From: a virus
Direction: 5' to 3' (one strand)
IMG/VR virus record: IMGVR_UViG_3300028866_000021
Span: 1-25,561 of that record
DNA length: 25,561 bases
Position numbers and translations under genes: made by a program
Shown here: positions 15,249 through 24,282 of the stretch, piece by piece
Layout: every line of letters starts with the position of its first letter
Numbering within the stretch: position 1 is the first letter of the stretch
Notes under the pieces: model-generated
What the model was told of the DNA's origin: nothing
What the model saw: the letters and a program-made list of their open reading frames with translations, nothing else
The model's database searches: none

Positions 15249-16301
15249 CTAGCTGATGATGGTTTCCGAGTTGGAAATCTTTTCGGCCATAACGACCTGG
15301 ATTCCCTGGAAGCGCGTAATACGCCGCGATCCCCAGATGTCGCCGGTCTCCGCGTTTTGCGTGTAGTAGCCATTGGTTTTCTGTGAGACCGCTCGGATGT
15401 TCATCTGATTCAGAATGGCGCGACTGCACAGAATCACCGTGCCGGGAGCATTACCCGCACCAGGAAGATTGCCCAGGGCCAGAATGAGCATGTTCTCATC
15501 GAAGCCACCCGGCTGCAACGGAATCGGGTTCACGTTGGCAACGCGTTGAGCGCAGCGTTCGTCAACGATCTGAAGTCCCAAGCTCCATTTGCACTGAGTG
15601 ACATACGCCATCAGTGCCCTCGATTGACCGAGAACTCCACTCAGGGCGGTGGCCATTGTCCACGGAACTTTGCCGATGGTGTTGATTTCCAGGCCTGCCG
15701 GACTACTGGCGGGGTAGATTGCTTGAACCTTGTCTTTTCCGAATTCGACCGCCCAGATGCTTGTGGCGTTGCCGGAGGTCAGCCCGCCGTTGTAAGCATT
15801 CGCAGGCCAGCTTCCGTCTCCGTTGGGAACCGATTCAAGATTGTTGATTCGTGTTGCCAGGCCTCTGATTCCACCAAGATCGGTAGCCGGGTTTCCGTAA
15901 AACAATACGGATTCGATTTTCTGCTTGAAGCCCTCGATCTTGTTGCTGATCTGGTCCGACATATACGCCGAGGGATCGGGTTGAAGGTCGGCAAACGCCG
16001 CATCTTGAACATCCCAATTTTCCCACATGGCAATATCGTCGGTGATGTTGGTGTTCTTGGAGTTCGTAATCACGGCTGCTTCATTGAACCGGCGCGTTGC
16101 AGGAACGTCCAGGTAATCGGTACGCCGAGCGACGTTGAAAAGCATGTTGTTTGCCGGGACGAAAGGCAAGAACTCAAGCAAAGGGCAAGCGCGGGCAAGC
16201 ACCTTTGCGGGCTGGACAAACTGCGCACGGGCATCCGAGGACGAGTAGCTGTTGATTACATCCGTCATCGTGGTGTAACCGAGTTGCGAGGCATCTGCCA
16301 T
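15249..16301 (-). CDS. Major capsid (coat) protein
   Basis: The 350-residue protein has features of a phage coat of the BPP-1 (Bbp17)/HK97-fold type. It opens with TMTDVINSYSSSDARAQFVQPAKVLARACPLLEFLPFVPANN, and has an E-loop-like stretch (AAVITNSKNTNITDDIAMWENWDVQDAAF). Next come SNKIEGFKQKIESVLFYGNP, and LGGIRGLATRINNL. Place (after the scaffold gene, before the cement gene), length and composition all fit. The ATG at 16301 has GGGGAGA 8 bases upstream. It sits in a cassette bounded on both sides by terminators, which fits a gene needing its own expression level. Confidence 0.9.
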   Translation of the reverse strand: MADASQLGYTTMTDVINSYSSSDARAQFVQPAKVLARACPLLEFLPFVPANNMLFNVARRTDYLDVPATRRFNEAAVITNSKNTNITDDIAMWENWDVQDAAFADLQPDPSAYMSDQISNKIEGFKQKIESVLFYGNPATDLGGIRGLATRINNLESVPNGDGSWPANAYNGGLTSGNATSIWAVEFGKDKVQAIYPASSPAGLEINTIGKVPWTMATALSGVLGQSRALMAYVTQCKWSLGLQIVDERCAQRVANVNPIPLQPGGFDENMLILALGNLPGAGNAPGTVILCSRAILNQMNIRAVSQKTNGYYTQNAETGDIWGSRRITRFQGIQVVMAEKISNSETIIS

Positions 16302-17653: not shown

Positions 17654-17902
17654 TCAACCCTCCACGATTCCTATTAGAGCATCCACTTCGCTCATTGTAC
17701 CGCTCATCCTGGCAATTGCAATAGCCACATTGTACTCAATCCGCTCCACTTCGTTGTTCAATGGAACCCCGAAGTGATTTGAAACGAGTATATCACCAAG
17801 CACTTTCCGACCCTCAGTCGAGCTAAACACGCTCCGGTAATACTGCTTCATTTTCTTATCGGCAATCTGTCTGGCGTCTTCTTCCGGCGTGTAGTCAATC
17901 AT
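17654..17902 (-). CDS. Small helical protein, Bbp19-like
   Basis: The 82-residue product contains YYRSVFSSTEGRKVLGDILVSNHFG and then VERIEYNVAIAIARMSG, a pattern like Bbp19-type small proteins of podophages (F...F.S..G..VL.DL, then a conserved Glu/Arg helix). The ATG at 17902 overlaps the portal stop as ATGA and has AAGGAG 8 bases upstream. Function in the family is not known to me. Its place right after the portal gene suggests a role in head assembly. Confidence 0.7.
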   Translation of the reverse strand: MIDYTPEEDARQIADKKMKQYYRSVFSSTEGRKVLGDILVSNHFGVPLNNEVERIEYNVAIAIARMSGTMSEVDALIGIVEG

Positions 17903-19746
17903 TCGCCTGGCTCCTTACCGCCGCCCATCATGGTTTTGAGAGGGCTGTCCGGCTCTGCCGCCTTGCCGGCCAGTGCCGCCGCCTTGGCAATCTTAGGTGC
18001 GTTCTCAATCTGCTGCTGCTTCTCCTGCTGCTTCTGAGCCATCTCCCGTATCTGAGCAATGGCCTTTGGGTCACGTAGGCACGTTGCTGGACCGCCTACC
18101 GCGTCCCATGCCTCGCGCACCATCTCATCCGTGTCGAGAGCGTGCATGGCGAGAGGATCGAACTGTGTGATTGACGTAATCAGAGCCACTCCGGATTGAA
18201 TCGCCCGGACCTTCGTTACCCTGGTCTGTGCCTGAGACAAGAGGCCCAGATATTGCACCTTGATTGGCTCATGCTCGGAATCTTGAAGAATTTGCGGAAC
18301 TTCAGGAATGCGTCCTGCCCTTGCCTCAATGTCGAACACCCTGGCAATCATGGGGTTGAACCCTTCCGATTGCAGGTTACCGACAATGGTTCCGAGCAGC
18401 GCCGCCTTCTCGGTCATCAACTCATTGATTTGCGCCGTCACCATACGCTCAGTGGCACCGCCCTGCGCCAATTGCGTAAGCAGGGTGAACACATCTGTGT
18501 GGAAGTGCTGGTTGATGATCTGCGCAACTTTGCCCTGATACTCCGTATTGAACGGAAGGTTTTGGACGCCGGTCGTTAGAGGTTGCGGCATGATCTGGCG
18601 AATGTCGCCACGGTTGGTTGGGATGAATGTAAAGCCGTTCGGGCCACGCTGAATCTTTCCCCGCTGGTCCTCATACGCCACCATCGGAGGTTCAGCCGCT
18701 TTCTGGGCAGTAATCAGATTGGTTCTCCCCATCTGATTGTCCAACGCGATGGCGACCCAAGCATCGTGCGCCGGAGAGCGACCGTAGGATTCGTCTGAAT
18801 TCTTCCTCCATCTCCAACTCAGTATCGGCATAGAGTCGTAGCCGCCCTCGGACAGCATCTTCAATCCCTGATTCCCGTCAGCGCCGAGAATCTTGCCTCC
18901 CTTTCGATACACCCAATCGGATGCCCATTTCTTTCCCTTGGCATCTATGCGCCCAGGGTTGTAATCCTTGCGGGGATAGACCGCATGGAGAACTTCGCGC
19001 TGCTCGTGCATATTGCTTTCGTAGTCATGCTCGAAGTTCGTATCGGCCTTCTTCATTTCGTCCAAGCCGAACTGCTGAACGAACTGCCGAAGCGTCATTT
19101 TGTAGACGCGATAGTTTGTGTCGACCTGGCCAAATCGGTTTTCCGCGATGAAGCATTCCCGGAAATGGGGAACGGTGAAAATGATGGTTGCCGTCGAAAC
19201 ATCTTCTTCTATCAGCAAGTGGGCCGTACCTGGAGCAGACCCATCACCGATGAATTCCGGCACTACATCATAGAAATTGCTTCGGTTGAACGCTGAATAC
19301 ATCACGTCTTGGCAGTCTTGAATCCACCGCTGGACTTCTGGGTAGGAATCGACTCGCTTTCCGGTCCATGCTCTCATCCGGCTTGTGCACGGGAAGTTTA
19401 GTTTGCCGGGAAGTTCCAGTCCAAACCAAGGTTGATTGCGAGAACAGAGATACCCCACCATACCCTTGACCAGAGTGTTGTGGGCAAGCATGGCGGAGTC
19501 GGCGAAAATCTCTAATCCGGTGGGCTGGCCGGGCCACAAATCCTTGTCTTGCACGCCCCGCCTGCCGTGGTTGACGTACATGATGATGTTGTCCACCATC
19601 CATTCCCACGGAAGTCTTTCTTGTGCAAGCACTTGTAGATATTTCTGAGCATCCTTGGCTCGTTCGTCGGCGGAGCGGTCGTTGAGCCGGGAGGGTGCAT
19701 ATCCCCCGGAGTACATATAAGGCGAGGCTAGACCGACAGAAGCCAT
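17899..19746 (-). CDS. Portal (head-to-tail connector) protein
   Basis: The 615-residue protein fits the T7-like connector family. It has an N-terminal region ending GLELFADS-type residues and a central SYGRSPAHDAWVAIALDNQMGRT, equivalent to the usual YGRGP..DAL. It then has AAEPPMVAY, a stretch TERMVTAQINELMTEKAALLGTIVGNLQSEGFNPMIARVFDIEARAGRIPEVP, which is the family hallmark, and a Gln-rich helical C-terminus (QKQQEKQQQI). The portal is the dodecameric ring through which DNA is packaged. The ATG overlaps the previous TAA (TAATG) and the stop overlaps the next ATG. Confidence 0.93.
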   Translation of the reverse strand: MASVGLASPYMYSGGYAPSRLNDRSADERAKDAQKYLQVLAQERLPWEWMVDNIIMYVNHGRRGVQDKDLWPGQPTGLEIFADSAMLAHNTLVKGMVGYLCSRNQPWFGLELPGKLNFPCTSRMRAWTGKRVDSYPEVQRWIQDCQDVMYSAFNRSNFYDVVPEFIGDGSAPGTAHLLIEEDVSTATIIFTVPHFRECFIAENRFGQVDTNYRVYKMTLRQFVQQFGLDEMKKADTNFEHDYESNMHEQREVLHAVYPRKDYNPGRIDAKGKKWASDWVYRKGGKILGADGNQGLKMLSEGGYDSMPILSWRWRKNSDESYGRSPAHDAWVAIALDNQMGRTNLITAQKAAEPPMVAYEDQRGKIQRGPNGFTFIPTNRGDIRQIMPQPLTTGVQNLPFNTEYQGKVAQIINQHFHTDVFTLLTQLAQGGATERMVTAQINELMTEKAALLGTIVGNLQSEGFNPMIARVFDIEARAGRIPEVPQILQDSEHEPIKVQYLGLLSQAQTRVTKVRAIQSGVALITSITQFDPLAMHALDTDEMVREAWDAVGGPATCLRDPKAIAQIREMAQKQQEKQQQIENAPKIAKAAALAGKAAEPDSPLKTMMGGGKEPGE

Positions 19747-20007: not shown

Positions 20008-20472
20008 CTATTCTCCCGTAACCACTATCGTATCACCGCTTCCATCGCGGCGAGACATCAACTGATCGGACTCTGCAAAGACTTCATCCTCAGCCTCTTC
20101 AACAGTTCCAAGAGCGGTCGGGTAAATCATCGTCATCTCAACCGGCCCATGAGTCCAAAAGAACTGCTTCCGCCCCGCGCATCCGGGAATGACATTGTAT
20201 CCAGTCAGCTCAACCCTTTGATCGCCGATCAACACTGAACAGTCTCCATGAACGATAAGAACAGTTGCCAACTTGATAAGCGAACCCATCATCTTTGTCC
20301 CCGGTTGGAGACGAATGGTTCTTGCATACATTCCGCCGTGGAATAGATGTTCTGTGGCGAGTTCGATCTGGGGGTAAGAGAGGATGATTTTGTTGATTTC
20401 GTTCAGTTGCTCGAGAACGGCTGGCGAAGCCGGGAACATGGCAATCGGTAAAGGTGCCGTCAATGTGCTCAT
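20008..20472 (-). CDS. Cupin-like small beta-barrel protein
   Basis: With the ATG at 20472, overlapping the acetyltransferase stop (ATGA) and preceded by GAGGTGG, the product has 154 residues. A helical start is followed by a jelly-roll pattern (HGGMYARTIRLQPGTKMMGSLI, VLIVHGDCSVLIGD, VELTGYNVIPGCAGRKQFFW, VEMTMIYPT). Related phage proteins near terminase genes, as I recall them, have a metal-type IHKTEH segment; here that segment reads IKLATV, so the usual His ligands seem lost. It may be structural or bind a ligand without metal. The longer frame to 20577 lies within the previous gene and has no ribosome site. Confidence 0.75.
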   Translation of the reverse strand: MSTLTAPLPIAMFPASPAVLEQLNEINKIILSYPQIELATEHLFHGGMYARTIRLQPGTKMMGSLIKLATVLIVHGDCSVLIGDQRVELTGYNVIPGCAGRKQFFWTHGPVEMTMIYPTALGTVEEAEDEVFAESDQLMSRRDGSGDTIVVTGE

Positions 20473-20912
20473 AGCCACCTCGTAAACATGGTATGGCTGG
20501 CCTTGCAACCGGGGCGATGGGACAACACCACATCCAAAGGACTTCCTACCCTGGCGGTGTACAGCAGGGCCACACATCCATTCCTGATCGAGAAGCTCTC
20601 GACGGTAGACAGCAGGGCATCTGCGGTGCCAAGTTTCCTGTGAGACGGCAGAGCAAACAGACTTTCTATCGTGGCTATTCTCTTTCCATTGTGCGGCATA
20701 ACGCCTGCAACCACAGAGACAAATCCTACAAGAACATCATCCGAGTATGCGCCAAAGCAGTGAAGCGCCCCTGAATTCTCCATCGCGGCGTATATCTGGC
20801 GCTGTGGGTTGTAGTCGGGCATCACGCAGTCTTTCGAGTAGGCGTCCAACAGTTCTGCCGAGTTGGGAGCATCGAGAATGTCTGCATAACTGACTGGCTT
20901 TATCTCAAGCAT
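20469..20912 (-). CDS. GNAT-family acetyltransferase
   Basis: The product from the ATG at 20912 (GGAG 5 bases upstream) has 147 residues; an earlier ATG at 20930 has no ribosome site. The central strands (HCFGAYSDDVLVGFVSVVAG), then ATIESLFALPSHRKLGTADALL, match the GNAT acetyl-CoA site, with R92-K93-L94-G95-T96-A97 as the pyrophosphate loop. The substrate is unknown. Its place directly after TerL (8-base overlap) and before the cupin-like gene recurs, as I recall, in several podophage late regions. Confidence 0.85.
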   Translation of the reverse strand: MLEIKPVSYADILDAPNSAELLDAYSKDCVMPDYNPQRQIYAAMENSGALHCFGAYSDDVLVGFVSVVAGVMPHNGKRIATIESLFALPSHRKLGTADALLSTVESFSIRNGCVALLYTARVGSPLDVVLSHRPGCKASHTMFTRWL

Positions 20913-22599
20913 TGGCGCTCCGTAACCCATAGCTTAGGGGATTGTAATCCGTTTCGCTTCGTGCCGCTAGGAATTGAGCGATCAAATCATTCTTCTCGTT
21001 CGGCGGTGAGTAAACCGGCTGCTCCAGGCAGAGGTAGCGAACTGTGTCCGCAAAATCCTTATATCCCTCTTCCGGTTTATCGGTTCCCGCCTTCCACTGA
21101 TAATTAAACAAATCCTGAGTCGGGCCCCGTTCACCCCGGCAACCTTCCTCTGCGAACAGCAGCGCCGGAACATCTTTGCTCTTAACGGCGGAGTAGTGAT
21201 TTTGCAAGTATTCTTTCACCCGCTTGTGCCCCAGCGCAATGTCTCCTGCCTCGGAGTGCGAAAGCCGGATGCGTCCGATTCCCGCCTTTTCGAGTTCATC
21301 TTCCCACGAGGTATCGTTGAGCTGCGTCCGCGCACCGTACTTTGCATCGAGAACTACAAACGCCGGTTCATAATAGTTGTGTTCTGCCCGTTTCACTTTG
21401 ACCTGTCGTGCGATCTCTTCCACATTCCCGTTTGCCAAAAGATACGCATAAACGTAGATTCGATTTGCCGGTTTCCCATTTATTGTAATGTCCTCTGGGC
21501 TTACTGCCGCAAACAGCCAGCGTGTCGGGCGGGCGTCGTGTGGATCAACTGCCTCAATCCGCATCCAATCGGAGGGTATTTTGAAATCCTTGTAGAGATG
21601 CACCGCACGGTCGAGCGTCTTGTATACCAGCCCGCTGAGGTGGCCTTCCTTACCGCCAATATGTGCGTCATACTCCTCTGGATCGGTAAACAGTTTGGCG
21701 TACTCTTCTATGCCCGCCCGTGGAATGAAACCCATGATGAGGCCGCACTTAGGGCAATTGTTTACCGGGCGCTCCCCGTGGGGATCAGCCATGTTCACAG
21801 GGTCGTTTTCCGGAATATACTCGTCGCACTGCCGGCAATAGTCCTGGCAATTGTCCCAGGTCGTTCCGGTAAAGATCGCAATCTCTTGATCGTCCCCGCC
21901 TCCGTTGAACGCCTTCACGGAGAACATATCGTAGAAGTAGGGTTCGCCGTAGAGCGGGGTCATGGCGAACCAGGAGGGAGCGTTGGTCGTGACCTTGCCG
22001 CGCTCTGCCGCAATTAGTACATCTTGCGGGGGAGGCTCGTCCCATCCGTAGTGGTCATAGTCGATTCCAAGAAATGAGTCTGCCAACTGGTTATACGAAC
22101 GGACGTGGAGGGTTGAACCGCAGGCCTGTCCCGTGTAGTCGTACTTCAATGTGACCGACTTCAATGCTCCAGTCGTGTCCCGCTTCCAATCCGGTGCGCA
22201 GTGTGCCGGGATGAGCATGGCAAGCTCAGGCTCGATCTTTGCCGACACCGACTGAGCCATCGTCTGACATCCCATGAACCCCTGGTTGGGAACACGAATC
22301 GAAATCTTGTAGTCTGGATCGTCCGGCCTAAGCCACGGCCTGAATCCCATGGCGTGAGCTATTGATTCGCAAACACTTATCCTGGTTTTCCCGACCTTCT
22401 CTCCAGGCTTGAGGATGCGCCGTCGAGGTGTGCGCCCGTACTTATTCTTGATTCTGATGAACGGGTCTTGCACCCGGTTCATCCGCAGCATCCCAAGGCG
22501 CATCAACTGGTTCGCGGTTGAGACTATCTTGGAAGGCTCGATCTTCCCATCAGCGCCGACAAGCCGAGCCAGCACGTCCGGCTGTTCGCGCTTTCCCAT
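20905..22599 (-). CDS. Terminase large subunit (DNA packaging ATPase-nuclease)
   Basis: The 564-residue protein has an ATPase domain with a Walker A-like motif at 65-72 (PGEKVGKT, with Pro where Gly or Ala is usual). Walker B is at 178-188 (GIDYDHYGWDE, acidic pair D187-E188). An RNase H-like nuclease domain follows with three acidic motifs: VDPH (D352), FVVLDAKYG (D418) and KDFADTVRYL (D515, D518). Between the two domains there is a Cys cluster, C251/C255/C258 and C282/C285, that looks like a zinc ribbon. It cuts and pumps DNA into the prohead through the portal. GGAGG precedes the ATG by 4 bases, and the ATG overlaps the previous stop. Confidence 0.92.
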   Translation of the reverse strand: MGKREQPDVLARLVGADGKIEPSKIVSTANQLMRLGMLRMNRVQDPFIRIKNKYGRTPRRRILKPGEKVGKTRISVCESIAHAMGFRPWLRPDDPDYKISIRVPNQGFMGCQTMAQSVSAKIEPELAMLIPAHCAPDWKRDTTGALKSVTLKYDYTGQACGSTLHVRSYNQLADSFLGIDYDHYGWDEPPPQDVLIAAERGKVTTNAPSWFAMTPLYGEPYFYDMFSVKAFNGGGDDQEIAIFTGTTWDNCQDYCRQCDEYIPENDPVNMADPHGERPVNNCPKCGLIMGFIPRAGIEEYAKLFTDPEEYDAHIGGKEGHLSGLVYKTLDRAVHLYKDFKIPSDWMRIEAVDPHDARPTRWLFAAVSPEDITINGKPANRIYVYAYLLANGNVEEIARQVKVKRAEHNYYEPAFVVLDAKYGARTQLNDTSWEDELEKAGIGRIRLSHSEAGDIALGHKRVKEYLQNHYSAVKSKDVPALLFAEEGCRGERGPTQDLFNYQWKAGTDKPEEGYKDFADTVRYLCLEQPVYSPPNEKNDLIAQFLAARSETDYNPLSYGLRSANA

Positions 22600-23961: not shown

Positions 23962-24038
23962 CGTCAGACAATGTGCAACACCTTTTTGCGGAAAATTTCA
24001 TGGGCGTCTTATGTAACGCGTTGCCCACCCCGGCCGCA

Positions 24039-24200
24039 TTTGGGGTCATAGGGGGTATCTGAGGCTCTCTTTTCTCCTGTCGCATTGATAATAAAAAGCG
24101 ATACGAATTCTATCCGAGGATTCGAACCGGCTTGCAATCCTATAAGGAATCAATATCTTACCAGATGAAGAGGCCAAAGTACCCCCAAATGTACCACCCC
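24039..24200. other. Candidate phage attachment site (attP)
   Basis: The centre (24118-24128) reads GGTTCGAATCC on the minus strand, the exact form of a tRNA T-loop with its closing pairs. The T-stem does not pair further in place, and no cloverleaf can be drawn, so it is a tRNA fragment rather than a tRNA. On the plus strand at 24039-24059 are two boxes 11 bases apart (TTTGGGGTCAT, AGGGGGTATC). On the minus strand at 24200-24179 are two similar boxes (GGTGGTACATTT, GGGGGTAC). The pairs are inverted and nearly equidistant from the core, like arm sites of a tyrosine integrase. No integrase is present in the window. Confidence 0.4.
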
Positions 24201-24234
24201 ACGATGCCGCTGCCCAGATGATCGCCGGCTGCTT

Positions 24235-24282
24235 GGCTATCCATATAGGTGGCAACACCTGGACCTGGTGGCTATCCATATA
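24235..24282. repeat. 13-bp direct repeat beside the attachment-like site
   Basis: GGCTATCCATATA occurs at 24235-24247 and 24270-24282, 35 bases apart. Between the copies is a small hairpin, AGGTG-GCAA-CACCT. The pair could be binding sites for a recombination accessory protein or for a regulator of late transcription. Both readings are inference. Confidence 0.6.

Follow-up and report, generated by a model that had tools for sequence, protein, structure and literature searches.

A probable attachment-site remnant beside a conserved packaging-like module between the terminase genes of a soil phage

Introduction

P4-type integrases insert mobile DNA at tRNA genes, and cos sites usually lie upstream of the terminase genes. 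In phage HK97, the small terminase subunit (TerS) binds positions 15-29 bp past the cut (PMC11331095), a stretch that reads CTAACCCGATTTTTT in the HK97 sequence. Among podoviruses, Bordetella phage BPP-1, epsilon15 and BcepC6B provide the comparison for the locus considered here. The soil phage examined carries an epsilon15-type capsid protein like theirs, and shares with BPP-1 the gene order TerS-TerL-GNAT-short tail fibre-hypothetical-portal. However, BPP-1 and BcepC6B are temperate and possess integrases, whereas no integrase was found in the soil phage; in addition, the BPP-1 attachment site lies in tRNA-His beside its own integrase, while the site described below lies between terS and terL.

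The window, which denotes the whole stretch analysed, is a 25,561-bp IMG/VR virus record classed as linear. A sequence-only reading of its terS-terL interval had proposed an attP-like layout at a tRNA, with a T-loop midway between two inverted pairs of GGGGTA-type boxes of 11-base period and a 13-bp direct repeat alongside. It took this as a sign of a temperate phage, or alternatively of a recombination scar. The features discussed here are collected in Table 1.

Table 1. Features of the terS-terL interval and neighbouring genes (window coordinates)
Feature	Position	Strand	Basis or remark
Conserved non-coding module, ~92 bp	23982-24073	-	Sense AAAAGAGAGCCTC..CCCCCTATGACCCC..GGCCGGGGTGGG..CATGAAATTTTCCGCAAAAAGG; putative cos/packaging site
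Left "boxes"	24042-24057	+	GGGGTC 24042-24047, GGGGGTA 24051-24057; C-run core of module; spacing ~10
Deletion junction	24112-24117	.	64 bp of L048 absent in window; 3-nt microhomology TCG
Right half-site as a whole	24115-24198		Boxes, spacer and tRNA fragment
Remaining tRNA 3' fragment	24115-24128	-	GGTTCGAATCCTCG; T-loop 24118-24128; best cellular match tRNA-Gln(CUG)
Spacer, boxes to tRNA fragment	24129-24178	-	50 nt
Integrase arm-type box pair (predicted)	24179-24198	-	GGGGGTAC 24179-24186, mutated GGTGGTAC 24191-24198 (also listed as GTACCCCC and GTACCACC, respectively); spacing 12
Two 14-bp direct repeats	24234-24247, 24269-24282	+	TGGCTATCCATATA; 35 bp apart
TerS-like helix-turn-helix protein, 148 aa	24399-24845	-	Position, HTH, helical C-terminus
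Large terminase TerL, 564 aa	20905-22599	-	tblastn to annotated large terminase, E 9e-23
GNAT acetyltransferase	20469-20930	-	
Portal / head-tail connector	17899-19746	-	PF12236, E 3.6e-100
Major capsid protein, epsilon15 gp7 type	15249-16301	-	NF045672, E 1.3e-36

Packaging genes

All the genes listed in Table 1 lie on the minus strand. The assignment of TerL is accompanied by a match of its ortholog in relative L034 to phrog_2, the large terminase subunit family (3.3e-6). The upstream protein is taken to be TerS from its position and helix-turn-helix; PHROGs and NCBIfam offer no matching family for it, and AlphaFold models it with low confidence (pLDDT 59.5). In an alignment with its orthologs, the N-terminal and middle parts have diverged while the C-terminal GQATQ-NVSVLLDLVQAARDMRD is near-identical in most, a pattern that suggests domain exchange.

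Right half of the locus

The T-loop GGTTCGAATCC occurs as an exact copy only once in the window, and the probability of finding GGTTCRANTCC on one strand of the 161-bp region, estimated from Markov shuffles, is 3e-4. Counted singly, GGGGGTA words show no enrichment across the window (17 seen versus 13.8 expected); the significance of the right-hand boxes lies instead in their being paired and in the recurrence of this pairing elsewhere. A search for GTACCCCCAWWWGTACCCCC with at most one mismatch yielded eight matches in 249 Pseudomonadota genomes, against none for the reversed-pattern control. Five of the eight adjoin tyrosine integrase genes, all with PF00589 and PF22022; four of these integrases (L116, L120, L121 and L123) additionally contain PF13356, while L119 has the two shared domains. 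The boxes adjoin tRNA-Ala in L121 and tmRNA in L123. In IMG/VR, the pair was detected in 27 stretches, four of them from the phage group of the window. Because the pair recurs beside P4-type integrases, the right-hand boxes are identified as probable integrase arm-type boxes.

The geometry of these loci agrees with this identification. Reading along the GGGGGTAC strand, a CCA lies 73-77 nt past the second box in 12 of 15 loci outside the phage group, a count that overstates independence, as L124, L139 and L142 are near-copies of one another. The exceptions are L136 and L145, with CCA at 86-89, and L129, which has none. In several loci, the CCA closes a recognisable tRNA or tmRNA 3' end, e.g. 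GACGCCGCCTCCACCA. The corresponding distance is 75 nt in L012 (also listed as L088), 75 in L030 and 72 in L048, all measured in relatives, the CCA end of the window itself having gone with a deletion.

Taken together, the stretch from the tRNA fragment to the boxes is, on sequence and geometry, a predicted half-site of an attachment site at a tRNA gene, of the kind that a P4-type (PF13356+PF00589) tyrosine integrase would bind. It shares with P4-type sites the GGGGGTAC boxes 12 bp apart, a spacer of ~50-60 nt, the same strand order and a tRNA 3' fragment whose CCA end falls at 72-77 nt (72-75 in the phage relatives). It differs from them in having no adjoining integrase, in lying between terS and terL, and in an acceptor part of the tRNA core that has diverged or, in the window, been deleted. 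The proposed attP-like layout thus holds for the T-loop and right boxes, through the integrase-adjacent pairs, the box-to-CCA distance and a tRNA-Gln match.

Source of the tRNA fragment

With up to three mismatches, the consensus core TTCGAATCCTCGTCTAGCAGCCA matched in 13 of 248 Pseudomonadota genomes (reversed control, two). Twelve of the 13 matches end like tRNA-Gln, e.g. GGTTCGAATCCTCGTCCCCCAGCCA; 11 of these were fetched and confirmed by ARAGORN as tRNA-Gln(CTG), and the twelfth, G514, has exactly the same sequence. The block common to L048, L044 and tRNA-Gln(CUG) is GGTTCGAATCCTCGTC, 16 nt long, of which the window retains 14 nt, so that a cellular tRNA sharing more than the generic T-loop does exist. 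The source is probably tRNA-Gln(CUG); it is graded as probable rather than proven because the acceptor part of the phage core is unlike tRNA-Gln, and full identity to a tRNA end is absent. In 247 Acidobacteriota genomes, the core with up to three mismatches gave two matches, neither within a tRNA, and no Acidobacteriota host tRNA was found with an 18-mer (at most one mismatch) or a 23-mer (at most three). A GTDB search with a 20-mer around the T-loop returned just two coding coincidences in unrelated genes, both encoding EDSNRLA. INPHARED contained no close phage homologs of the site, and in the window, neither ARAGORN nor Rfam detected a tRNA, whether as gene or pseudogene.

Deletion and erosion of the half-site

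The midway position of the T-loop between the box pairs holds for the window. Relatives lack this symmetry: in L048, 64 bp more separate the T-loop from the left module. In the window, GGTTCGAATCCTCG is followed directly by GATAG, whereas in L048 the two are separated by the 64 bp, which comprise the rest of the tRNA fragment plus flank. As this extra piece ends in TCG, the deletion in the window went through TCG microhomology, and the symmetric layout of the window is therefore a product of that deletion.

The half-site (T-loop plus right boxes) is found in the window, L003, L007, L049, L048, L017, L044, L019, L012/L023 and L030/L052, and is absent from L016, L025, L055 and L060, all of which have the left module. 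Compared with L012, both L048 and L007 show a single difference among the 27 positions of boxes and T-loop, versus 16 or 17 of 50 in the spacer. This slower change (Fisher p 0.002-0.003) suggests past or present constraint on boxes and T-loop in L007, L048 and L012, a hint that some relatives may still use the site. In L030, on the other hand, boxes and T-loop change at the spacer rate, the T-loop reading GGTATGACTCC and the boxes being mutated. The window has one change in its second box, in the form GTACCACC that L044 also carries, and its acceptor side is gone. The half-site therefore appears, from these comparisons, to be eroding in several lineages, and a scar of recombination, with its 64-bp deletion and mutated box, best describes the window copy, which has most likely lost its function.

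Conserved left module

The two inverted box pairs of the earlier reading are both present; they carry different motifs and have different origins, and their 11-base period is only an average of ~10 on the left and 12 on the right. The left boxes are part of a conserved module kept in relatives without any att sequence, so that their proposed role as integrase arms is not upheld.

The sense consensus of the module in the alignment is AAAAGAGAGCCTC..GACCCCCATGCCCCCCAT..GGCCGGGGTGGGTCG..CATATCCCGCCCATGAAATTTTCCGCAAAAGG, from which the window departs in having CTTATGTAA for ATATGTACG. By nhmmer, BLAST and alignment, the module occurs in essentially every relative covering its position, including L034, L035 and phages whose TerL is only ~54-68% identical. 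Within the terS-terL interval, conservation peaks at 0.74-0.78 in the module, most of the remainder lying at ~0.3-0.45. Neither a common coding frame nor a consensus RNA fold was found for it. A pattern scan picked up this architecture again in a second, distant phage family (L092, L094, L095, L096, L098 and L101), where the module precedes the terminase genes; in L101, it has the same polarity and is bordered by a replication-O-like gene on one side and the terminase operon on the other. Matches in L097, L099 and L103 were set aside as unrelated sequence lacking the C-run core.

Given its position and conservation, the balance leans towards the module being a cos-like packaging site; a promoter or another protein-binding site is possible. 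As in lambda and HK97 cos, a short, conserved, non-coding and GC-rich block is followed by an A/T-rich stretch (TATCCC..ATTTTCC) near the terminase genes, and the likeness of this stretch to the HK97 TerS-bound sequence is one of pattern only. The module differs in lying, in the window family, after terS rather than before it and in having no alignable homology to those sites, and cutting and TerS binding are putative. It was not found in the scanned stretches of lambda, HK97, epsilon15, BPP-1 and BcepC6B.

Two further observations concern this element. Its end (24058-24073 in the window) exists among the relatives as two alleles, AGGCTCTCTTTT and GGTCCTACTTTT, in a mosaic distribution that could reflect terminase specificity. 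Contig L057 (positions 1-66) terminates exactly within the module, at CCGGCCTC, adjoining the C-run core, like a cut genome end; it is the only contig to end there (n=1), and the 47-48 kb contigs L034 and L035 pass through.

Search for an integrase and lysogeny genes

Searches with portal, TerL and TerS gave ~70 related loci. No tyrosine integrase (PF00589) was found in the window and 40 related records, a few of which share only the module pattern. The lack of an adjacent integrase noted earlier was thus confirmed, and the search of the whole window for one elsewhere in the contig was equally negative. A serine recombinase was rejected, as it rested on one weak sub-cutoff match in the L032 record only. 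Since the start and end sequences of L034 (48,136 bp) and L035 (47,000 bp) overlap, both are probably complete circular assemblies, and both lack integrase and half-site. None of 20 L034 proteins scanned against PHROGs matched a lysogeny family; among the annotated proteins are HNH endonucleases, an Erf-like annealing protein and an exonuclease. For lineages with the half-site, the sequence available consists of contigs of up to 25.6 kb; these are fragments, so an integrase elsewhere in their genomes is possible.

Origin of the locus and alternative explanations

The window locus is probably a composite of a decayed P4-type half-site and an older packaging-like module, that is, a scar and a non-functional attP. 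According to this model, an ancestor of these epsilon15/BPP-1-like phages would have gained one side of an attachment site between terS and terL, consisting of two arm-type boxes, a ~50-nt spacer and a tRNA 3' end (likely tRNA-Gln(CUG)) from T-loop to CCA. The piece would thereby have come to adjoin the older ~92-bp element, a probable cos-like mark of where terminase starts packaging and cuts the DNA. If functional, such a site would have its boxes bound and its spacer bent by the integrase, which would exchange strands between the tRNA core and a host tRNA gene. The lineage of the window lost the acceptor end of its core to the 64-bp microhomology deletion, and one of its boxes is mutated. 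The half-site may have arrived during an ancestral temperate phase, by recombining with a satellite or island, or through insertion in a phage-borne tRNA gene. The composite model implies that an integrase half-site without an integrase is still recognisable by its sequence and geometry, and that att pieces gather beside a conserved packaging-like element in the terS-terL interval of this uncultured phage group. For environmental podoviruses that lack a cultured close relative, this element is a candidate packaging site that can be put to the test. The locus is also a warning that a T-loop and boxes alone do not make a phage temperate: no integrase was found in the window or 40 related records, 47-48 kb contigs among them, and the temperate lifestyle earlier proposed does not follow and is unproven.

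Among the alternatives, a functional attP in a temperate phage, lying between terS and terL by happenstance and served by a P4-type integrase in an unsequenced part of the genome or in trans from a resident prophage or island, is unlikely. In its favour are the slower change of boxes and T-loop in L007, L048 and L012, the temperate, integrase-bearing relatives BPP-1 and BcepC6B, and the incompleteness of the lineage genomes. Against it, no PF00589 was found in the 41 records, among them the complete-looking relatives of 47-48 kb, which also lack the half-site; no lysogeny gene is annotated among the scanned L034 proteins; the integrase in L130 and other elements begins soon past the core, where terL-side genes stand here; and the window copy is truncated and that of L030 degenerate.

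Slightly less likely is the integration of a satellite or island into a phage-borne tRNA gene, followed by its loss, with the far end left behind. tRNA genes do occur nearby in relatives (tRNA-Leu in L030/L052, His and Asp in L034, Met in L015), but none matches the core, and relatives carrying a full element or a phage-borne tRNA-Gln were not found.

It is improbable that the whole interval is a single packaging or regulatory region, in which the right boxes and direct repeats would be TerS-binding repeats and the T-loop incidental. The location next to terS, the conserved module alongside and the helical-turn-like repeat spacing fit such a region, but L016, L025, L055 and L060 keep the module without the right half, and bacterial integrases have the box pair nearby without the module. 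More improbable still, L048- or L012-like relatives might retain a working site without an integrase and lysogenise via P4-type integrases of islands or satellites, the site then adjoining the packaging start because both are exchanged as one cassette. Chance occurrence of a T-loop-like 11-mer and C-rich words in GC-rich intergenic DNA, with no integrase link, is strongly disfavoured and very improbable: unenriched GGGGGTA words and the coincidental T-loop 20-mer in two coding genes would suit it, but the paired boxes beside P4-type integrases (control zero), the agreeing box-to-CCA geometry, the CCA at the expected place in L012 and L030 and the low T-loop probability speak against it.

Other features of the interval

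The direct repeat described as 13 bp exists and is 14 bp long; two copies are also found in L048 and L007, and one related copy in L016, L055 and L060. A 77-aa ORF (24046-24279, minus strand) with a weak Arm-DNA-bind_2 match (E 0.018) was rejected as an integrase fragment, its frame being broken by one base in relatives. On the terS side of the module in L015 (~1320-1360), a differently spelled pair, GTTGCCCCTAAAGTTGCCCCC, occupies the same place with both copies altered together, as if it were a half-site of another integrase specificity. Finally, terS and the half-site are separated in L052 (7700-8460) and L030 (1-700) by a ~690-bp piece that carries a terminator-like hairpin as well as a tRNA-Leu(CAA) gene. 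This piece is bordered by a duplication of the terS 3' end (~55 bp), as if recombination had inserted it.
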